A DNA stretch of 43,724 bases. It comes from Plantactinospora alkalitolerans. GTDB lineage: Bacteria; Actinomycetota; Actinomycetes; Mycobacteriales; Micromonosporaceae. Made by a program: the position numbers and the translations under genes. Under the pieces are notes generated by a model that worked only from the letters and a program-made list of their open reading frames with translations, ran no database searches and was not told where the DNA came from. Of the stretch, positions 9,985 to 32,706 are shown in pieces. The DNA lies in assembly GCF_015690345.1 (NCBI RefSeq), contig NZ_JADPUN010000059.1, forward strand, positions 1-43,724, written 5' to 3'. The first letter of the stretch is position 1, and every line of letters begins with the position of its first letter.

Positions 9985-10410
9985 TCAGGCGATGCAGGCG
10001 CAGACGATCAGGGCGGCCCCGAAGTGCGTCGCCGCGCTCACCCGGGCGGCCGGATGCGGCTCCTCGGAGCAGATCACCTCACCGAGCTTGCCCGGGGTCA
10101 GCCAGTCCAGCACCAGGAACGCCAGCGCCATGATGCCGATCCCGATGACACCGAACAGGACGGTCGAGGCCAGCCCCTTGGCGAAGTCGGTGTAGCTGGT
10201 CAGGATCGCGGTGAAGACGATGCCGGCGATGCCGAGCTGGTTGGCCAGCAGCAGCAACGAGGCGTTGGAATTGCGCTGCACCCAGATCAGCTCGCGCAGC
10301 TTTCCCGGGGTGAGGGCGTCGACCAGCCCGAATCCGGCCGCCATCAGCGCAATGCCGACCACACCGAACACGATGCTCTGCCAGGCTCCCGCGAACAGAT
10401 CCTCGACCAC
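9985..10410 (-). CDS. DUF350 family membrane protein
   Basis: A 141-residue inner-membrane protein with four predicted helices arranged as an internal duplication. The first half has SIVFGVVGIALMAAGFGLVD ending LTPGKLREL. The second has STVLFGVIGIGIMALAFLVL ending LTPGKLGEV. This twofold repeat with LTPGKL is typical of DUF350 (UPF0719), whose function is unknown. GTG 10410 is chosen because GGGAGG lies 7 bases upstream; the frame stays open for 30 more codons without a ribosome site. It lies downstream of the GlnA2-type gene, separated by a hairpin. Confidence 0.9.
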   Translation of the reverse strand: MVEDLFAGAWQSIVFGVVGIALMAAGFGLVDALTPGKLRELIWVQRNSNASLLLLANQLGIAGIVFTAILTSYTDFAKGLASTVLFGVIGIGIMALAFLVLDWLTPGKLGEVICSEEPHPAARVSAATHFGAALIVCACIA

Positions 10411-22148: not shown

Positions 22149-22733
22149 TCAGTCGTCCGCCTCCTCGTCCTCGTCGCCGGGAGTGGTCAGATCCTGCTCG
22201 CCGAGGAAGCCCCACCACTCGTCGTCGTCGAAGCCGATCTCGCCGTACCCGGCGCCGAAGACGTAGTAGGCGAGGAACGAGTCGAGGTCCGGCGCGACTT
22301 CGAGGAACAGCTCACGCATGAACCACTCGTCGGTGGTCTCCGCCGGGAGGTACCAGACCGCGCCGGTGTCGCGCCGGATCAGCAACGGCTCCTCGTTCAG
22401 CGTGCCGAAGACGAGCCATTCGGCGGGTTCGTCGGCGACGCCGGTGAACTCGGGCATGTGCTCGAGGTAGTACTGGATGTTGTCCAGCTGCTTCACTCCA
22501 CGCAGGTCGAACGCGCTGGCGCGGATACCGTCGGCGGTCTCCAGCAGCTCCCGGACCTGCTGCGGCAGCTCGACGGGGATCTTGTCGGCCGGAGCGCCCT
22601 CGTTGATCTGGGCCCAGACCAGCGTCGCGGGCTGGTCCGCCTCCAGGTCGGTACGCAGCTCCGCGATGAGTTCCGACAGCTCGGTATTCAATCCACCACC
22701 TCTATTCGGATCGATGATGCTCAGGACGCGCAT
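22149..22733 (-). CDS. SMI1/KNR4 (SUKH)-like protein
   Basis: 194 residues. The pattern LPQQVRELLETADGIRASAF, then EWLVFGTLNEEPLLIRRDTGAVWYLP and a C-terminal FLEVAPDLDSFLAYYVFG, fits the SUKH superfamily, members of which include immunity proteins of contact-dependent toxins. The tail is acidic (DDDEWWGFLGEQD, GDEDEEADD). ATG 22733 lacks a good ribosome site. TTG 22691 (LNTELSELIAELRTDL) has AGAGG upstream and may be the real start. No toxin gene is adjacent, so an immunity role is unproven. Confidence 0.8.
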   Translation of the reverse strand: MRVLSIIDPNRGGGLNTELSELIAELRTDLEADQPATLVWAQINEGAPADKIPVELPQQVRELLETADGIRASAFDLRGVKQLDNIQYYLEHMPEFTGVADEPAEWLVFGTLNEEPLLIRRDTGAVWYLPAETTDEWFMRELFLEVAPDLDSFLAYYVFGAGYGEIGFDDDEWWGFLGEQDLTTPGDEDEEADD

Positions 22734-22762
22734 GGGCGACAGTCCGCCCGCTGGCCTTCCAA

Positions 22763-22816
22763 CCGGACCGCTGCGCCGCCGGGGGAAGGCCACCGACAAC
22801 CGCCGGGATGTCGCCC
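22763..22816 (+). repeat. GC-rich dispersed repeat, left copy
   Basis: About 55 bases matching 33002-33057 with a few differences; the shared core is GAAGGCCACCGAC with CCGGACCGCT before it and CCGCCGGG after it. It is a direct repeat some 10.2 kb from the right copy. The rest of the gap 22734-23063 shows no recognisable gene. Confidence 0.75.
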
Positions 22817-23063
22817 CCATGGCCGTTAGACATGGGCTCGTCTCCCGGGACCGCCATGCGTGCAAACCGGGAAGGCTACATCGTTGCGGTGCTGGGGTCC
22901 CGTGCCCAACTGCTGCACAAGCACGGCCATGGCCATCGACGGCCCGTCATCGACGAAGCCATGCGTGAGGATAGCTGGATGTCCTGCACTATTCGGGGCT
23001 GTCTGTATCAGGGCACCGAGCAGAGTGGCACGGTCACCGGCGGAAGCTGCCGCCCCCAGACGT

Positions 23064-25357: not shown

Positions 25358-26200
25358 ATGAGTCTTGACCCTGATGACCCGCGCACTCCGTCGCAGCAGA
25401 TCGCCGCCGCGCTCCGCGCCGAGATCAAAACCGGCAAGTTCGCCCCAGGCGAGAAACTGCCGTCGCAACACGATCTCGTCGAACGTTTCAGCGTCGCCCG
25501 CGAGACGATCAAGGCAGCGCTACGCAAGCTGCAAGAGGAACGGTTGATCGTCACCCGCCAGGGCAGCGGCACCTTCGTCCGCGCCAACACCGAACGACCC
25601 GTCGGACTACGCCCCCACGTCGAACGCGCCTTCGAGGCTACGAACGTCACGATCGACTTCGCCGGCTTCTCCGGAGAGACCCTGTACAACGCCATCCAGG
25701 AAACCCTGGACAAGGTACGGATCGGCCGACTCACCCCGGAGTCGATCCGAGTGCGGGTGTTGATCTCCGACATGACCGCCCCGATGGCGATCCCGTGCCG
25801 CGCCGAGGACCAGGCCGACGACCCCGCCATCCGCGACCGAGCCCGCCGGATCACCGACCGGTCGATTCACGCCGTGACCGACGCCGTACAGGAACTCGCA
25901 GACCTCGGCCTGGTCAAGACCGCCACCGCCGACGTACGGGTCCACAACGCCGCCCCGCTGTTCAAGCTGTTCATCATCAACGAGCAGGAAGCGTTCTTCG
26001 GCTTCTACCCGGTCGTCGAACACACGGTGATGATCGACGGCAAGCCGATGGCGATCTACGACGCCATGGGCAAGGACGCGATCCTGTTCCCGTTCACGCC
26101 CAGCGACGAGGACGCCTCCAACGACGCCCTCTACGTGGAGCAGGCCCGCGCCTGGTTCGACAGCATGTGGGGAACCATCGCCCGCGAGTACACGTCGTGA
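25358..26200 (+). CDS. GntR-family transcriptional regulator (KorSA-like)
   Basis: 280 residues. The N-terminal winged HTH is classic GntR: QIAAALRAEIKTGKFAPGEK, LPSQHDLVERFSVARETIKA, ALRKLQEERLIVTRQGSGTF. The C-terminal domain (from about residue 85) is not FadR- or UTRA-like in any way I can name; it holds AVTDAVQELADLGLVKTATA and FFGFYPVVEHTVMIDGKPMA. GntR repressors such as KorSA keep AICEs quiescent by blocking the pra activator. The ATG has no ribosome site, so the mRNA may be leaderless. Its stop overlaps the HAD gene start (GTGA). Confidence 0.9.
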   Translation: MSLDPDDPRTPSQQIAAALRAEIKTGKFAPGEKLPSQHDLVERFSVARETIKAALRKLQEERLIVTRQGSGTFVRANTERPVGLRPHVERAFEATNVTIDFAGFSGETLYNAIQETLDKVRIGRLTPESIRVRVLISDMTAPMAIPCRAEDQADDPAIRDRARRITDRSIHAVTDAVQELADLGLVKTATADVRVHNAAPLFKLFIINEQEAFFGFYPVVEHTVMIDGKPMAIYDAMGKDAILFPFTPSDEDASNDALYVEQARAWFDSMWGTIAREYTS

Positions 26201-26886
26201 GCCGCGCCGACCTCGCCGCCGTCGTCGGCCGCGCCCGCGTCATCCTGCTCGATTTCGACGGACCGGTGTGCAGCATCTTCGCCCAGCACCCCGCGTCGAC
26301 CGTCGCCCACGAGCTGCGCCGCCTGCTCGTCGACCAGGCCGTGACGCTGCCCGTCGAGATCCTGCACGAGCCCGACCCGTTGGCCGTTCTGCGCTTCACC
26401 GCCACGTTGGGTCGACCCGCCGTCGTCCGCCAGGTCGAAGAGGCGCTGTGCCGCGAGGAGCTCACCGCGGCCCGTACCGCCGAACCGACCCCGTACGGCC
26501 GTGAAGTCATCGTGGCCGCGCACCAGACTGGCCGACGCGTCGCCGTGGTGTCGAACAACTCCGCTGGCTCCGTTCACGCTTACCTGAGCGGGCGCCGGCT
26601 CACCAGCTACGTACACCCGGTCATCGGCCGTGCCCCCGCCAACCCGGACCGGATGAAGCCGAACCCGGCCCCGGTCCTGAACGCCGTCCGGGAGCTGCAC
26701 GCCGATCCGGGGCATTGCGTCCTGATCGGCGACTCGCTCAGCGACATCGAAGCGGCCCACGCCGCCGGGGTCGCCGCCATCGGGTACGCCAACAAGCCCG
26801 GCAAACGCGAGCGGTTCGCCGCAGCGGACGCGGTCATCGACAGCATGGCCGAACTGGTAGCCGCCTTCGCCGTCGACGAGTTGTAG
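26197..26886 (+). CDS. HAD-superfamily phosphatase
   Basis: 229 residues with all four HAD motifs: motif I ILLDFDGPVC (nucleophile Asp and acid Asp), motif II VVSNNS, motif III Lys in DRMKPNPAPV, motif IV LIGDSLSDIEAA. The alpha-helical cap between motifs I and II (about residues 25-95) is of the C1 type, as in phosphoglycolate phosphatase-like enzymes. The GTG start overlaps the GntR stop by 4 bases, so the pair is translated together. Substrate unknown. Confidence 0.9.
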   Translation: MSRADLAAVVGRARVILLDFDGPVCSIFAQHPASTVAHELRRLLVDQAVTLPVEILHEPDPLAVLRFTATLGRPAVVRQVEEALCREELTAARTAEPTPYGREVIVAAHQTGRRVAVVSNNSAGSVHAYLSGRRLTSYVHPVIGRAPANPDRMKPNPAPVLNAVRELHADPGHCVLIGDSLSDIEAAHAAGVAAIGYANKPGKRERFAAADAVIDSMAELVAAFAVDEL

Positions 26887-26945
26887 CAACCACCACCCCG
26901 CACACGAGCGCCCCGGTCGATCATTCCCGGGCGTTACTCGTGCCC

Positions 26946-27413
26946 TCAATCGACGTGCGGCACCCGACCCGCGAGGTAGTCCGCGATCTGCCGCCGCATC
27001 GTCGGATGGATGTCCAGACCCGCCAGCTCATCCGGCAGGAACCAGGCGACGTCGCTCGCCTCATCATTCGCCGCCGGACTCCCACCAACCGGCCGGGCCA
27101 GCAACGTCACCTCATACTCCTGACGAACCTCACCATCGGAATACGCCACGATGTGCCCGGGATCGGAATAGACGCCAACGATGCCGGTCACCTCGACCTC
27201 GACCCCGGTCTCTTCCAGGGTTTCCCGGACCGCACACTCTGACGGAGTCTCGCCGATCTCCATCTTGCCCATCGGCAAAGCCCACTGCCCGGTGTCGCGC
27301 CGCCGTTGCAGCAGGATCGCGCCCTGGTCGTCGACCGCCAGCACCCCGCAGGCAGGAACGAGCGTGTTCGCCTTCGGCGCGTCCGGATCGTTCCAGTGCT
27401 CGACGCGACCCAT
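26946..27413 (-). CDS. Nudix hydrolase of the element module (Pif-like by context)
   Basis: 155 residues with a perfect Nudix box, GKMEIGETPSECAVRETLEE then TGV. CGVLAVDDQGAILLQRRRDT lies upstream and DVAWFLPDELAGLDIHPTMR downstream. In pSAM2 a Nudix-motif protein, Pif, gives immunity against redundant transfer between cells carrying the element. The company of GntR and Pra-like genes makes a similar role possible, though sequence similarity to Pif was not tested. ATG 27413 is preceded by GGAGGTCTGAGG and follows the HTH gene stop by 2 bases. Confidence 0.88.
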   Translation of the reverse strand: MGRVEHWNDPDAPKANTLVPACGVLAVDDQGAILLQRRRDTGQWALPMGKMEIGETPSECAVRETLEETGVEVEVTGIVGVYSDPGHIVAYSDGEVRQEYEVTLLARPVGGSPAANDEASDVAWFLPDELAGLDIHPTMRRQIADYLAGRVPHVD

Positions 27414-27415
27414 CC

Positions 27416-28171
27416 TCAGACCTCCGTCCCCAGCCACGGCACCGCCGTAGCCCACACCCGGTCGAAGCTGGCCGTGTAGTGGTCGAACAGCCCGCCACCG
27501 TCGACCTTACGGAGATGAAACGTCGGATTGGCGGACGCTGCCTCACCGTACGCGTGCGGGTTGGTCAGGATCTCGTCGTCGTACCGGAACAGGCTCGCGT
27601 AGAGCGTGGTCGGATGAAGCCGAACCTCGCACCCGTCCACGCCCGCCAGCTCCCGGTAGTACGTCAACGACGCCCGGATCTTCGCCGCCAGCGTGCCGCC
27701 AAGTCCCTCCTCCCGGTCCCGGACCGCTACCGCGTCACTGGTCGGATCGCCGAAGCACAGCCGGACCTGCACCCCGGCCGCCAGCCGATCGGCAAGCATG
27801 CGCGCCACCCGAGGCTGTGTCTGGGCGAAGAACGTCCCGGAGAACACCAGCAGGTCAATCCGCTCCTGGGCCTCCGTCAGCAGCCGTAGCCACGTCTCAC
27901 GCGGCACCGACGCCCGGTCCGGGAAGACCTCGATCAATTCAGCGCGGCTGGCTTCCTCGCGCTTGCCGGCGACCGAGGCGAGCACGGCAGGCCAGAGATA
28001 CGCCTCTTCCGCACCCAACCGCCGCGCCGTGGCCCACCGATGCCGCCGATGCGGAACGCGACCGAGGCTGATCCACCGTTCCACCGTCTTCGGATCAACA
28101 CCGCACTCGTCGGCCAGGTCCTCAACCCGTACGCCACGACGAACCATCACCGTCCGCAGACGTTCGTTCAT
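27416..28171 (-). CDS. HTH regulator with DUF5919 (phospholipase D-like) domain
   Basis: 251 residues. The N-terminus is an HTH (MNERLRTVMVRRGVRVEDLA, DECGVDPKTVERWI, with the later VPHRRHRWATARRLGAEEAY). The C-terminal half is a PLD-like fold: LVFSGTFFAQTQPRVARMLA, VRLCFGDPTSDAVAVRDREE, GCEVRLHPTTLYASLFRYDD, FHLRKVDGGGLFDHYTASFD. This matches DUF5919-type proteins, in which the domain may sense rather than cleave, because no full HKD motif is evident. It is transcribed together with the Nudix gene. ATG 28171 is chosen by the HTH start; the frame extends upstream into the operator region. Confidence 0.85.
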   Translation of the reverse strand: MNERLRTVMVRRGVRVEDLADECGVDPKTVERWISLGRVPHRRHRWATARRLGAEEAYLWPAVLASVAGKREEASRAELIEVFPDRASVPRETWLRLLTEAQERIDLLVFSGTFFAQTQPRVARMLADRLAAGVQVRLCFGDPTSDAVAVRDREEGLGGTLAAKIRASLTYYRELAGVDGCEVRLHPTTLYASLFRYDDEILTNPHAYGEAASANPTFHLRKVDGGGLFDHYTASFDRVWATAVPWLGTEV

Positions 28172-28180
28172 CTCCCCATT

Positions 28181-28245
28181 GGACGTCTCCACTACAGGAC
28201 GTTTCAAGCCCGTCACAGGACGTTTCCCAACGCCCCCAGACGTCG
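28181..28245. promoter_or_regulatory. Iterated GACGT boxes upstream of the HTH-DUF5919 gene
   Basis: CAGGACGTTTC occurs at 28195-28205 and again at 28216-28226, exactly 21 bases (two helical turns) apart. Related boxes GGACGTCTCC (28181) and CAGACGTC (28237) flank them. The array sits directly upstream of the HTH gene start, suggesting autoregulation. Confidence 0.6.
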
Positions 28246-28855: not shown

Positions 28856-29032
28856 TCAAACTACAAAAATGGCGAGCGCGACCCCGGCGACAACGAAAAG
28901 GAAGACACTTATCCAACCAACGACAGCCATAAAGGAGAGCCTGCGGTTCTTGCCCCCTAGCCACTCGAAAAAACTAAGAATCACAACTACTAGAGTCGCG
29001 AATAGGAGCCCCAAGTAAAGCGCGGGCGTCAC
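28856..29032 (-). CDS. 58-residue two-helix membrane peptide, last gene of the four-gene operon
   Basis: GTG 29032 to TGA 28856 encodes VTPALYLGLLFATLVVVILS, FFEWLGGKNRRLSFMAVVGW and ISVFLFVVAGVALAIFVV. There are two hydrophobic helices with a short basic loop (GGKNRRLS) between, so both ends lie on the same side of the membrane. It starts 28 bases after the SPFH-like gene stop, on the same strand. GGGAGAGG lies upstream. Base composition is AT-rich like the rest of the operon. It could be a membrane effector or an anchor. Confidence 0.7.
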   Translation of the reverse strand: MTPALYLGLLFATLVVVILSFFEWLGGKNRRLSFMAVVGWISVFLFVVAGVALAIFVV

Positions 29033-29060
29033 GGGAGGAACCTCTCCCGATAGTCAGCCT

Positions 29061-29795
29061 TCATACCTCCTCGCCACGGCGCTCTGCTTCTACCTCGAAG
29101 ATCTCAAGCTTTGTCACAGCCTCCTTCCGATCGTATCGATCAAGCCAGACCTTCAGAACCTTCACACTGTCCCGGCGTTCGTCAGGGGTGAGATCACGAA
29201 GGAACTCCAACAACAGCTCGGCGACTTGAATCCAAAATGTTTCGCGATCATATTTCGCAACCTGTCGCGATATTTCTTCGAGATTACTATAAGATGCCTT
29301 GTCTGCAGATCCCTTATTCTCCAAAAAGTAGTAGGTGAGCGCCATATCAGGCTTGCTCAGTACTCGCCTTCTAAATGCTTCAACTCGCTGTATCTGATGC
29401 TCTTGCGCTTCCGCTTGTAGTTGCATCTCTTGTCGGCGCTGAACTCGATGAAGGGCCGCCGAGAGAGTTACCTGATCCACGGTAGCTTTCACCTGGACCC
29501 AGAGGATCTCAACGCCGATCCCCTTCAACTCGACAGGCAGTCCAAATGCACTGTTCATTCTGTCTTGCAGAAGGAGAGCTTCAGTTACGGGCAGACAAGA
29601 GGCGAGTTGTCCGCACATATATTGGATGTAACTACGTATTCCAGAGGTCGGGTCTTTATGCACTACACCAAAGGACAGTTGTTTCCATTCAAGATCGCAT
29701 ATGATCTTAAAGCACAGGTCGACTTCGACGCTGCTTACATCGGCTTCAAAGCTGTGCTGTACCACGGAGGGGCGCCGTCTCCACCATCTACCCAT
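29061..29795 (-). CDS. SPFH/band-7-like protein of the four-gene operon
   Basis: 244 residues. The first half is beta-rich (SVEVDLCFKIICDLEWKQLS, GIRSYIQYMCGQLASCLPVT). Then comes LPVELKGIGVEILWVQVKAT and a charged helix RVQRRQEMQLQAEAQEHQIQ, the arrangement of an SPFH (stomatin/flotillin/prohibitin) domain followed by its coiled coil. A C-terminal helical part (LLEFLRDLTPDERRDSVKVL) follows. There is no N-terminal membrane helix, unlike classical SPFH proteins; the next gene's two-helix peptide may supply one. The ATG overlaps the NTPase stop (ATGGGTAG), so translation is coupled. The SPFH assignment comes from pattern only. Confidence 0.75.
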   Translation of the reverse strand: MGRWWRRRPSVVQHSFEADVSSVEVDLCFKIICDLEWKQLSFGVVHKDPTSGIRSYIQYMCGQLASCLPVTEALLLQDRMNSAFGLPVELKGIGVEILWVQVKATVDQVTLSAALHRVQRRQEMQLQAEAQEHQIQRVEAFRRRVLSKPDMALTYYFLENKGSADKASYSNLEEISRQVAKYDRETFWIQVAELLLEFLRDLTPDERRDSVKVLKVWLDRYDRKEAVTKLEIFEVEAERRGEEV

Positions 29796-32139
29796 CCCAT
29801 TGCCCTGCTTGCAGATCAGGTGATGACGGGGAGGGCAATAATGGGTCAAAGCTCGATGCGAGCATGATGAGATCGTCGCGCAGGGCATGACGATGACTAA
29901 AGCGATTGTCAGGTGAACTCGGCTGCCACCGGAAGGCCAGGTTATCCAAGGCAACTCTGCGTGTGGCATGGAATCTGCCGTCGACCGGGTCATGTAGAGC
30001 TTCGACGAACACATTTAGTAAGAATGCTTGACACTGAGGATAGCTAAGGGCGGTTTCGAGGAAGAGAGTAAATGCTTCCCCTACCTCGGCTTCAACATGC
30101 CGTTGATTTAGTAGCGCTCGCCATCCTCGAACCAGGAACGCCCGGTCACGGGGGAGCGCGTCAACGACATTCTGGCCAGCTTGCGACAACAGGGACGGCA
30201 ACCCACTTTGCGAATCCGATAGACATGCGAGCGCGAGGAACATACGTCGACCCGCAGCCCGTTCGAGATCATTAGATGAATCCAACCACTTAGTAATCCC
30301 TACTCTAATCCGCTCTCTTAACTCGACATGTGCCCACAATGAGGCCGTTGCGGCGCCGACCTCGCCCCTCAATTGACTATCTGCCGTCTTCGCAAGATAA
30401 CCCAATCGATACAGCATCAGTTTCGGGTAAATCAGGCCAATCGGTCCACCGCATACGTTCGCTACAACAGACTTAACGGGGAGGTCCTCGGCAGACTCGC
30501 TCTTCGCCCAAGACAACATCTTGATACGCATTTTCGAACCCAGGCTGGTGTCCAAGGCCGCAGCCGTCATGAGAGCTACAGCAGCATTGTAGATATGATT
30601 ATGCCTTGACCAGATAGAAATAGTGCCCTCGATCAATGTCAAGTCGTCTTGGTTAATGCCCCATCTGAGTAGATATTGCCCGACGCGTTCGGCCGTGTTT
30701 TGAGCGGCCAACCCTTGCTGATCGACTGGCAAGCGGGTTGCCCAGTCCATGAACCGATCTCGAAGGTGAATGCGGTCAAGCCAGAAATAATCTAATACCG
30801 CGTCCGCGAATCCTATTCGCCTATAAGATATGGTCTCGCTCTTGGTTAGATCCGCTTGCACATCGTCCAGCAGTTCCAGCAGACCCGGTCCAGTCTGACC
30901 TGGCGATGAAGTCTCCCCCTCACCAAGTGCAAATGCCAACTGCTCCGCACCGATGAAGATGCTCGGCGCAGAAGAACCCTCTAACAGGGCTGCTGTCAAA
31001 AGGAAATTTCGCTGTCGACTATCACGGTTCTGTCGGTGCCACCGAAGAAGCTCCGAACGCCAGTTGTTTTGTGAGTCAATTACATTCTTAACCTTGGATC
31101 TGAATATGTCATCTTCGGTGACGTCTCCGTCAAACGTTGCCGGTGCAAGGTGCTCATATCTGATAGCTTCTGCCCACTCCACCGCATCTGGAGGCCCGAG
31201 GTCTGTAATGCGATTTCGGATCTCCGGGAACTGCGTCCACTTTTGGACGTCATGAAGCGGGAGTGGTGGATGTCCGTACTGTAGCCTACGCTCCACTACC
31301 GCGACGGCACCAGGTAGCCCTAGCTCAACCTTTAGATGTTCGCCACCGGCCCCCGTCTGACGCCAAAGGTCCCTCCGGATTACTACGACAAGGTAAGACC
31401 TGGCAGTCTCGAGCGATTCACTGCTGGTTGCAAGGGTTCTGCCAAAATTCCCGGAAATATCGTCGGTACGTCCACGCAAATCCAGGATCCATCCGGTTGG
31501 GCGTCGCGACACAAGATTCTCCGGGACAAATCCGTCGCCAGGGTCGCGTCTCACCTCTCGGAGCTCCAAGCCACCCTGATTATTCAGGAGCCATACGGCC
31601 GCACTGTGCCGGCCTGACTCCGGTTCGCCGACGAGGACAACTACGCGGTGATCGCGAAGTTTTCCGACGGCGTCGCCGATATGGACAGGAGCCGCAAATA
31701 GAGATACGACGCGCTGCACGTAATCTGGCGGTAGATCGTGTGAGTCCATCATCCGCCGCACGGTCTGATGAAGGACTCCGACTACAGTGCCTTGGTTTTG
31801 CAGAATGTCTTGTCGGATCGACACCGTAGCGTCATTCACCACATCGTGTGGCGCAACTTCCTCCTGAAGCCCCACCTCGAAGCCGTCGAAGCTTCCCAGA
31901 CCGCCCGACGCGTTTCCCGCAGGCGGCGATGCAGAACCCTCGGCTTGGTCACTGACGGCTTCGGCGTCGACTTCAATCTGGTTGCCTGATGCTTGCTCAT
32001 CCGTCACTTGGCTGTCCGAGTTTTCAGTAAGAGTCTGTCGTTGTTCGTCCCGACCTATATTGTCAGCCAGCCAGTCGCGATCGGGGCCCGTCCGCATCGG
32101 CTGATGATTTCCACTGGGAACGTCCGAGCCATGATTCAT
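29788..32139 (-). CDS. Large P-loop (STAND-like) NTPase with N-terminal signalling-type motif
   Basis: 783 residues. Residues 1-90 are acidic and disordered. Residues 101-127 carry a short motif (TVSIRQDILQNQGTVVGVLH) similar to the C-terminal motifs of the upstream gene's product. Residues 165-180 hold VVVLVGEPESGRHSAAVWLL, a Walker A in which Arg replaces the usual Lys (GEPESGRHS, 171-179). WILDLRG (about 218-224) is a possible Walker B-like strand. The remaining 500 residues are alpha-helical without recognised repeats. Atypical P-loops of the form GEPGTGRR are common in actinobacterial STAND-like proteins, so nucleotide binding is plausible. Codon use is AT-richer than the flanks. Function unknown; a sensor/switch role in a conflict system is inferred. 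Confidence 0.85.
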   Translation of the reverse strand: MNHGSDVPSGNHQPMRTGPDRDWLADNIGRDEQRQTLTENSDSQVTDEQASGNQIEVDAEAVSDQAEGSASPPAGNASGGLGSFDGFEVGLQEEVAPHDVVNDATVSIRQDILQNQGTVVGVLHQTVRRMMDSHDLPPDYVQRVVSLFAAPVHIGDAVGKLRDHRVVVLVGEPESGRHSAAVWLLNNQGGLELREVRRDPGDGFVPENLVSRRPTGWILDLRGRTDDISGNFGRTLATSSESLETARSYLVVVIRRDLWRQTGAGGEHLKVELGLPGAVAVVERRLQYGHPPLPLHDVQKWTQFPEIRNRITDLGPPDAVEWAEAIRYEHLAPATFDGDVTEDDIFRSKVKNVIDSQNNWRSELLRWHRQNRDSRQRNFLLTAALLEGSSAPSIFIGAEQLAFALGEGETSSPGQTGPGLLELLDDVQADLTKSETISYRRIGFADAVLDYFWLDRIHLRDRFMDWATRLPVDQQGLAAQNTAERVGQYLLRWGINQDDLTLIEGTISIWSRHNHIYNAAVALMTAAALDTSLGSKMRIKMLSWAKSESAEDLPVKSVVANVCGGPIGLIYPKLMLYRLGYLAKTADSQLRGEVGAATASLWAHVELRERIRVGITKWLDSSNDLERAAGRRMFLALACLSDSQSGLPSLLSQAGQNVVDALPRDRAFLVRGWRALLNQRHVEAEVGEAFTLFLETALSYPQCQAFLLNVFVEALHDPVDGRFHATRRVALDNLAFRWQPSSPDNRFSHRHALRDDLIMLASSFDPLLPSPSSPDLQAGQWDG

Positions 32140-32181
32140 GCCATTGTGGCCCTTCGCTAAGGTCGTTCCGGTCTGGGCGGC

Positions 32182-32706
32182 CTAACCGAGCCTCCTGATT
32201 CGCGCCCCAATAATGGTGGCTTCCGGTCCGGTATGCTCGGCGTCCTGCGCGATGTCCACCCGCGCTTCCCCTCCCACGGTCTCTGCGTCTAAGCCGACCA
32301 GACCGCCCTCAGCTTCTTTCACCCGCTGTCGAATCTGGACACCGGACGTCGGCCGTGATTCGCCCTCAAACGCGAAGTGCTGGCCATACACTTCTTCGAG
32401 GAGACCTCTGAGATGCGCCAAACTCCTCATGAGCCGCCCGTCGTCATGGCGCACCGTTTCGCGCTGATCGACATACGCACCCAGAATATCCGCCAAGGAC
32501 TCGAGTTCTGATCTTCTTTGTTCGACAATCTCTTGGTTCGCTTCTAAACTCGCAATATCGCCCTCGAATGCCCCCGGCACCTCTGCGAGTTCAGATCCTG
32601 GCTGTTGGCGTCGATCAAGAACTGCGTTGAGTCGCCCGAATAGGAATGACAAAGTTTGCGTAAGCGCCGTTCCGGTGAGTGCGGGAAAATCTAGAAAATC
32701 TGCCAC
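32182..32706 (-). CDS. Coiled-coil protein with duplicated C-terminal motif, first gene of the operon
   Basis: 174 residues from GTG 32706, which has TGGAGG just upstream; the frame stays open to a GTG at 32808 without a ribosome site. The N-terminal FLDFPALTGTALTQTLSFLF is followed by a helical, Glu-rich middle (SLEANQEIVEQRRSELESLA) and HLRGLLEEVYGQHFAFEGE. The last 50 residues are two beta-like repeats, VQIRQRVKEAEGGLVGLDAE and ARVDIAQDAEHTGPEATIIG, that resemble residues 101-127 of the NTPase encoded 42 bases downstream. No enzymatic motif is visible. It could be an adaptor or sensor that recruits the NTPase by homotypic contact. Confidence 0.75.
   Translation of the reverse strand: MADFLDFPALTGTALTQTLSFLFGRLNAVLDRRQQPGSELAEVPGAFEGDIASLEANQEIVEQRRSELESLADILGAYVDQRETVRHDDGRLMRSLAHLRGLLEEVYGQHFAFEGESRPTSGVQIRQRVKEAEGGLVGLDAETVGGEARVDIAQDAEHTGPEATIIGARIRRLG

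Follow-up and report, generated by a model that had tools for sequence, protein, structure and literature searches.

Four minus-strand open reading frames (ORFs) lie tightly packed at positions 28856-32706 of the window, the whole stretch of 43,724 nucleotides analysed here, which is contig 346 of a 9.2-Mb genome and belongs to a genus represented by a sample of seven genomes. Gene 1 (G1, 174 aa, 32182..32706) is separated by 42 bases (32139/32182) from gene 2, which encodes a 783-aa NTPase (29788..32139). Genes 2 and 3 overlap by 8 bases (29788-29795), the third encoding a 244-aa SPFH-domain protein (29061..29795), and a further 28 bases (29032/29061) lie between gene 3 and gene 4, the frame of a 58-aa peptide (28856..29032). 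The ORFs, strand and spacing given in the preliminary description of this locus are all exact. The same description called the genes richer in A+T than their surroundings, which holds: the G+C content of the operon is 0.548 as against 0.705 in the rest of the window, and the lowest values among 200 sampled window stretches of operon length are those at the operon.

Direct annotation of the four genes is nearly blank. None of them matches PADLOC, and NCBIfam and PHROGs give nothing useful for them; a PHROGs comparison of eight proteins matched none, and no tRNA is found in the window. The setting had been read as a region of decayed mobile-element genes. That reading is poorly supported, as the flanking ORFs scanned (a part of all flanking ORFs) include GntR, NUDIX and HTH genes and contain no integrase, transposase or PHROG match. 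The GntR regulator (25358-26200), the NUDIX gene and the HTH protein, which has weak DUF5919/PLD-like matches at its C-terminus, adjoin the operon within 25358-28216. A SUKH-4/SMI1-type immunity-like protein with borderline Pfam scores is encoded at 22149-22865.

The base composition raises the question of whether the window copy is a relic, that is, an AT-rich acquired fragment that has gone out of use. Low G+C is no general trait of the family to which the operon belongs, which agrees with such an origin: in 72 relatives the G+C of the NTPase gene departs from that of the flanks by a mean of -0.001, and in 22 of them it is more than 0.03 lower. Speaking for a working copy are the three long intact frames in their tight order and a pair of short motifs, described below, in which the window proteins are still best matched to their own partner. 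Disuse is quite improbable on this evidence.

Proteins encoded by the operon

The GTG start of G1 at 32706 is consistent with the starts of its homologues and is preceded by GGAGG. An AlphaFold2 model built from a 29-row alignment (pLDDT 82.2, pTM 0.70) has a helical N-terminal domain with three main helical stretches (residues 12-30, 58-63/65-80 and 90-107) followed by a C-terminal beta region, in which four strands form two repeats (123-132/135-144 and 150-159/164-173). The first repeat, VQIRQRVKEAEGGLVGLDAETV, covers residues 123-144 (32275..32340, minus strand), and the second, placed from the model, covers residues 147-170 (32197..32268, minus strand). The helix at 12-30 is amphipathic and not transmembrane, with a mean hydropathy of 0.91 and a moment of 1.15. 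The PDB holds no match to the G1 model with E under 0.5, and profile searches of solved structures with G1, the NTPase and the SPFH protein returned nothing convincing. Gene 1 was originally taken to encode a coiled-coil motif protein; this is inexact, and the plain coiled coil has been dropped in favour of a helical domain with two beta repeats.

The NTPase belongs, by Pfam, family profiles and a tree, to an nSTAND3-like family. The match of the window protein to nSTAND3 (PF20720) has E 0.036 and 14.2 bits, under the Pfam gathering score of 27.2, and matches were obtained for 7 of 14 family members (E up to 0.5, best 6.3e-6); HEAT-type Pfam matches occur in a few relatives. The atypical Walker A sequence GEPESGRHS noted earlier is located at 31603..31629 (minus strand) and has Arg at the position of the P-loop Lys, departing from the canonical GxxxxGK[ST]. 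Most of the family shares this substitution, with Arg in 79 and Lys in 6 of 95 aligned members. Because the P-loop Lys is missing, hydrolysis by the NTPase is uncertain. A Walker B-like strand, WILDL, follows at 31477..31491 (minus strand), its Asp being present in 72 of the 95 aligned members. N-terminal to the P-loop, residues 106-127 (31759..31824, minus strand) make up a 22-residue motif, VSIRQDILQNQGTVVGVLHQTV, recognised by motif comparison.

Protein 3 was first described as SPFH-like, and both its predicted structure and its closest structural neighbours bear this out. The model (38 rows, pLDDT 89.1, pTM 0.65) runs in the order beta-beta-alpha-alpha-beta into a 39-residue helix (108-146) and a helical C-terminus. 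In a Foldseek search of the PDB the first 27 matches are SPFH proteins (HflK/C, stomatin, flotillin, QmcA) and the 28th is aquaporin-stomatin; the best E is 3.9e-4, three matches have E at most 0.001, and TM-scores, low when taken over full length, reach 0.56 by target for single SPFH domains. By sequence the relationship is faint: Band_7 matches the window protein with E 0.093 and 13.2 bits, under the Pfam gathering score of 23.6, and matches just 1 of 13 SPFH family members. Hydropathy finds no transmembrane stretch in the window protein (best 19-residue value 1.17). The SPFH/Band 7 protein of locus L045 has two hydrophobic stretches.

A conserved core with an exchangeable front gene

Two of the six other genus genomes contain relatives of protein 2, at 28-29% identity. 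When all seven were searched independently with protein 3, the only matches outside the window (at E 0.001 or better) were genes adjoining these protein 2 relatives. The linkage of genes 2 and 3 is therefore more than chance, the matches themselves being weak (E 1e-4 and 8e-4). A profile built from 14 NTPases finds the family in 60 of 394 genomes of the class, at 82 places; 60 of these were fetched, 6 were already in the set and 16 weaker or partial ones were left out. Protein 2 also matches eight records of a plasmid collection, seven of them from Streptomyces, and the same collection searched with G1 and with protein 3 gave none. No record of the phage collection matches protein 2, and a scan of genome contigs with it gave 41 pattern matches, none of them a relative.

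Seventy-five NTPase loci were typed with profiles built from these same loci. An SPFH gene follows the NTPase gene on the same strand in 64 of them, often with a 4-base overlap (L108 and L129, counted here, match the SPFH model at E about 1e-4 only); in the other 11 no SPFH gene is recognised. The gene in front of the NTPase is variable: it is cyclase-like in 39 loci (with the TIR model matching L087 and L106 as well), TIR in 18, G1 in 3 and untyped in 15, and a search with a G1 profile added 20 loci of the window's type. Neighbouring genes vary with the front gene. A CRP-type gene precedes 37 of the 39 cyclase loci; elsewhere it precedes a single untyped locus, and the 21 TIR or G1 loci all lack it. 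PycTM is found downstream in 8 of the 75 loci, all of the cyclase type. The cyclase assignment rests on one profile search, in which the cyclase profile matches the solved cyclase 3mr7 with E 1.6e-8; the proteins have an invariant Asp18 and Gly64-Asp65, PADLOC PycC matches 1 of 23 of them (E 0.002), and Pfam has no match to those scanned. Other types were checked with Pfam on examples: two TIR loci (TIR_2, E 6e-9) and two PycTM loci (E 1.3e-8 and 1.1e-12) are past the Pfam cut-offs, and in one CRP example Pfam finds a cNMP-binding and an HTH domain. A nucleotidyl cyclase, present in 39 of 75 typed loci, is absent from the window operon by Pfam.

The window's own genome contains a second, cyclase-type member, L137 (G000:C131:3784-14725), with a CRP-type gene, a cyclase, the NTPase and the second of the PycTM genes cited above (E 1.1e-12), and with no SPFH gene recognised. 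In L010 a 114-aa membrane protein takes the last position, and L044 has a gene named Pycsar effector upstream. The cyclase frame of L011 (L011:10181-10783) stops before the NTPase, and the gap contains a separate short ORF (10001-10153) with a stretch like the NTPase N-terminus. Cyclase-type blocks adjoin rpsL and rpsG in seven loci (L006, L007, L078, L079, L082, L084 and L097), six of which have rpoC and an M48-type peptidase gene nearby as well, within the stretch that was fetched; L088 likewise has this second pair of genes. The fixed place of this subgroup beside ribosomal and RNA-polymerase genes suggests a core role there and fits core signalling as well as defence, and it shows that not every family member behaves as a mobile defence gene.

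A search with G1 over the 394 class genomes matched 17: two strongly (L032 and L033, 36% and 40% identity), one fairly (L034), the window's own and 13 weakly. In L032 and L033 the G1 genes lie directly upstream of relatives of the NTPase and SPFH genes. Six weak matches were fetched (L035-L040) and rejected when the G1 profile found no G1 gene there; an iterated model had drawn in L035-L038, and the matched ORF of L036 and L037 reads by eye as a MarR-type regulator rather than G1. A profile of four G1 proteins, run over 372 genomes of one genus, was positive in 28 of them, at 31 places, of which 26 were newly fetched, 2 were already in the set, and a second copy in G822 and two pieces in G817 were left out. 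The NTPase is downstream in 20 of the 26 new loci, and 19 of these 20 also have the SPFH gene (L184 has a split NTPase frame and no SPFH gene). Across the 30 G1 loci examined, the NTPase is present in 23 and the SPFH gene in 22. Six of the 26 new loci lack this NTPase, and in five of the six its place is taken by a frame whose P-loop is canonical (e.g., GEPGAGKT), as in L034; in L191 no G1 partner was seen. Because some loci carry this other frame in place of the NTPase, G1 is a module serving two kinds of STAND-type partner. In L188, L189, L190 and L193 the canonical-P-loop partner carries, after the P-loop, a stretch that by eye resembles the G1 C-terminus in pattern, as in VTVEQHIGVVEAGARAVGIRIDDL of L188.

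A tree of the NTPases (91 rows; L047, L114, L120 and L184 excluded) places all 22 G1-type rows, including the window, in one group with support 99, and the nearest rows outside it are two cyclase-type loci of the window's genus (support 94). With a midpoint root the tree requires 13 changes of front-gene type as compared with 44.9 for shuffled labels. Exchange of the front gene has thus occurred and is infrequent.

Gene 4 had been included as a two-helix membrane peptide. It begins at a GTG start with GGGAGAGG upstream and has two hydrophobic stretches, with a best 19-residue hydropathy mean of 2.8. In 21 other G1 loci scanned, no ORF starting within 200 bases after the SPFH gene has two such stretches. 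L180 has an ORF with a single hydrophobic stretch there, and nine of the 21 (L032, L169, L170, L171, L172, L175, L178, L179 and L181) have an unrelated small protein with a start like RWLLAP, RVVLAP or RWVLDP. Similar RWLLAP-type small proteins are found in L041-L044, in L043 after the NTPase, and L011 has, at a greater distance downstream, an ORF of 50 aa with two hydrophobic stretches. The peptide has been dropped as a core part, having no counterpart beside the SPFH gene in the related loci, and is a doubtful member of the system. These observations bear on an anti-phage abortive-infection reading in which G1 is a sensor or adaptor and killing is done at the membrane by the SPFH protein or the two-helix peptide. 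The strong hydrophobicity of the peptide, its position directly after gene 3, the membrane proteins found last elsewhere (the eight PycTM loci and L010) and the ORF of L011 would all fit it. The scan of the 21 loci speaks against it, as does a motif layout, set out below, that assigns to G1 the effector place of published pairs, and killing by either protein is improbable.

Genes 1-3 keep the same order in other genomes. The preliminary description had named regular occurrence of the NTPase without the other three genes as a refuting result. This outcome holds for gene 1, whose place a cyclase or TIR gene takes in most loci, and for gene 4; the SPFH gene is retained in 64 of the 75 loci. Genes 1-3 form a conserved three-gene system within a widespread actinobacterial operon family, with gene 4 apparently outside it, and in outline the preliminary description is right.

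Matching motifs and a possible death switch

Front protein and NTPase of one locus resemble each other, the former at its C-terminus and the latter at its N-terminus. Among the 60 loci with a typed front gene (the 15 untyped ones being left out), the mean local score of cognate pairs is 62.5 as against 32.6 (SD 1.38) for permuted pairs, and none of 10,000 permutations reaches the cognate value. Clear pairs are found in L116, L117, L119 and L131. When partners are ranked by score, the cognate one comes first for 16 of 39 cyclases, 7 of 18 TIRs and 1 of 3 G1s. In the window the best ungapped match joins VQIRQRVKEAEGGLVGLDAETV of G1 with VSIRQDILQNQGTVVGVLHQTV of the NTPase, with 9 of 22 residues identical; the cognate NTPase has rank 1 of 60 overall and 1 of 21 in the G1 set. 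The window score was reached by 9 of 2000 shuffles in a first gapped test and, in a later test, by 1 of 500 gapped and 0 of 500 ungapped shuffles.

For the G1 group as a whole the match is modest by sequence. With the near-copies L172 and L174 left out, the gapped cognate score is 27.2 as against 24.0 (SD 1.07) for permuted pairs, reached by 44 of 20,000 permutations (131 of 20,000 when ungapped). Of 21 G1 pairs, just 4 (L180, L185, L186 and the window) have a score that no more than 10 of 500 gapped shuffles reach, and in L032 and L033 the own partners rank 39 and 36 of 60, which is no match. The motif site has N-x-G in all 23 G1-type NTPases.

One motif on the NTPase and two on G1 fit the layout of amyloid-motif NLR signalosomes, in which this arrangement would give G1 the place of the effector. 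The chances seem about even that the window operon is a cell-death or defence switch in which the motif is templated from the NTPase to G1 on an SPFH scaffold. In this model the NTPase would sense a trigger through its C-terminal region and oligomerise, so displaying its N-terminal 22-residue motif in multiple copies. The displayed motifs would then serve as templates on which the two C-terminal beta repeats of G1 take up an identical stacked beta structure, with one motif on the receptor and two on the effector as in fungal NWD2/HET-s. The helical N-terminal domains of G1, once clustered, would act in turn, most likely on the inner membrane, and the attack would kill or arrest the infected cell. 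The SPFH protein, placed here by its predicted fold and its linkage, may be a ring-like platform that keeps the complex at the membrane. Defence through membrane disruption, as the preliminary description had it, is plausible, and the presumed targets would be phages. The core of the sister loci is the same, and its partner there is either a cyclase, accompanied by CRP and sometimes by PycTM, or a TIR protein.

TIR and PycTM proteins are effectors of cell-suicide systems. The death-switch model gains support from the linkage of the genes, the cognate motif pairing, the N-x-G of the motif site, the two beta repeats of the G1 model, the single tree group of G1-type NTPases, the published precedent for motif-paired genes, and the known effector or messenger types (TIR, PycTM, cyclase) that hold the front or last position of the operon. 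It is weakened because the G1 helix is amphipathic rather than transmembrane and the G1 model is without a PDB match, because the NTPase has no P-loop Lys, because seven cyclase-type loci adjoin rpsL and rpsG, because the four genes have no PADLOC match and protein 2 none in the phage records, because 11 of the 75 loci are without a recognised SPFH gene, and because the motif match in the G1 group is modest.

The motif evidence could also be read in another way. The motifs may be ordinary docking tags that pair by homotypic beta-strand contact within a regulated stress or development signalling complex that contains no death switch; a cognate match requires pairing only and no polymerisation. 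The cyclase-type loci agree with this: seven adjoin rpsL and rpsG, rpoC and the M48-type peptidase gene accompany six of these and also L088, and the CRP-type genes at 37 of 39 cyclase loci point to gene control. Ordinary docking fits less well with a two-to-one repeat layout that resembles published amyloid signalling motifs, with partners (TIR and PycTM) of the cell-suicide type, and with the patchy distribution of G1 (28 of 372 genomes of one genus) and of the NTPase (60 of 394 class genomes). Docking of this kind is somewhat unlikely.

The death-switch model has a wider form, which is a real possibility if short of an even chance: a distinct class of signalosome, in which a core of an Arg-P-loop STAND relative and an SPFH protein fires any front gene that carries a matching self-templating motif. 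Were it true, amyloid-type signalling would be organised on SPFH platforms in about one-seventh of the sampled class genomes, by the distribution of the NTPase, and a single core would have three exchangeable outputs (a cyclase, a TIR protein and a new helical killer). It would also join motif-templated (amyloid) death signalling with SPFH membrane scaffolds, a pairing not met before in the literature searched. The specificity of the motif is approachable by swapping 22 residues between loci, and, with Arg replacing the P-loop Lys in most members, it may be asked whether the switch works without hydrolysis.

Comparison with known systems

The preliminary description could name no system with this combination of genes, and the literature searched likewise describes none. 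No description of an operon of NTPase, SPFH and front gene was found in the open-licence literature searched, and this absence is no proof of novelty. Amyloid NLR signalosomes of the BASS/BELL kind in filamentous bacteria are said to have been described by Dyrka et al. 2020. Motif-paired NLR and effector genes of filamentous bacteria are reported in two papers (PMC7889193, PMC8086366): actinobacteria and cyanobacteria have adjacent NLR and effector genes with a common amyloid-like motif, the effector being the small helical domain BELL and less often TIR or CHAT (PMC7889193), and for BASS4 a repeated motif on the effector side, of the kind known from HET-s, is described as relatively frequent, the r0, r1 and r2 motifs of HET-s/NWD2 being mentioned as well (PMC8086366).

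The present family resembles these pairs in several ways. In the window and the family a STAND-type gene adjoins the front gene (with G1 as the putative effector), and a matching short motif lies at the effector C-terminus and the receptor N-terminus, more weakly in the G1 group. G1 has by its model a small helical domain, possibly comparable to BELL, in which the helix at 12-30 is amphipathic and not transmembrane. TIR effectors occur in both, and repetition of the effector-side motif is reported for BASS4. In contrast, the NTPase of this family is nSTAND3-like and has an Arg P-loop, the core includes an SPFH gene, and the sister loci have cyclase front genes, CRP and PycTM.

In HET-s/NWD2 of fungi, the effector has two repeats and the receptor one, and the two are encoded by adjacent genes. 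The two repeats of G1, the single motif of the NTPase and the adjacency of their genes repeat this arrangement; no sequence relation is claimed, and G1 has no HeLo-like match in the PDB. Pycsar consists of a cyclase with PycTM or PycTIR. The sister loci similarly encode a class III type cyclase, and some also PycTM, whereas the window has neither cyclase nor PycTM, and the cyclase of the sister loci differs in carrying a motif that matches an NTPase with an SPFH partner.

The NTP-dependent conflict systems of Kaur et al. 2020/2021 are described as STAND NTPases whose exchangeable effector modules are brought in through homotypic adaptors (PMC7159879, PMC8195603). Mention is also made of CRP-like factors in other systems and of a cNMP cyclase linked to Band 7 domains within vWA proteins (PMC7159879); the main text of PMC8195603 contains no SPFH. 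These systems are likewise actinobacterial and place exchangeable effectors on a STAND NTPase, and cyclase, TIR, CRP-like and Band 7 components are mentioned there in other settings. The window's four genes differ from them in having no vWA or MoxR Pfam match, in using a short beta motif as the adaptor, and in having Band 7 as a separate gene adjoining the NTPase. What differs from the known motif-coupled STAND signalosomes is the NTPase family, the SPFH core gene and the cyclase branch with CRP and PycTM.
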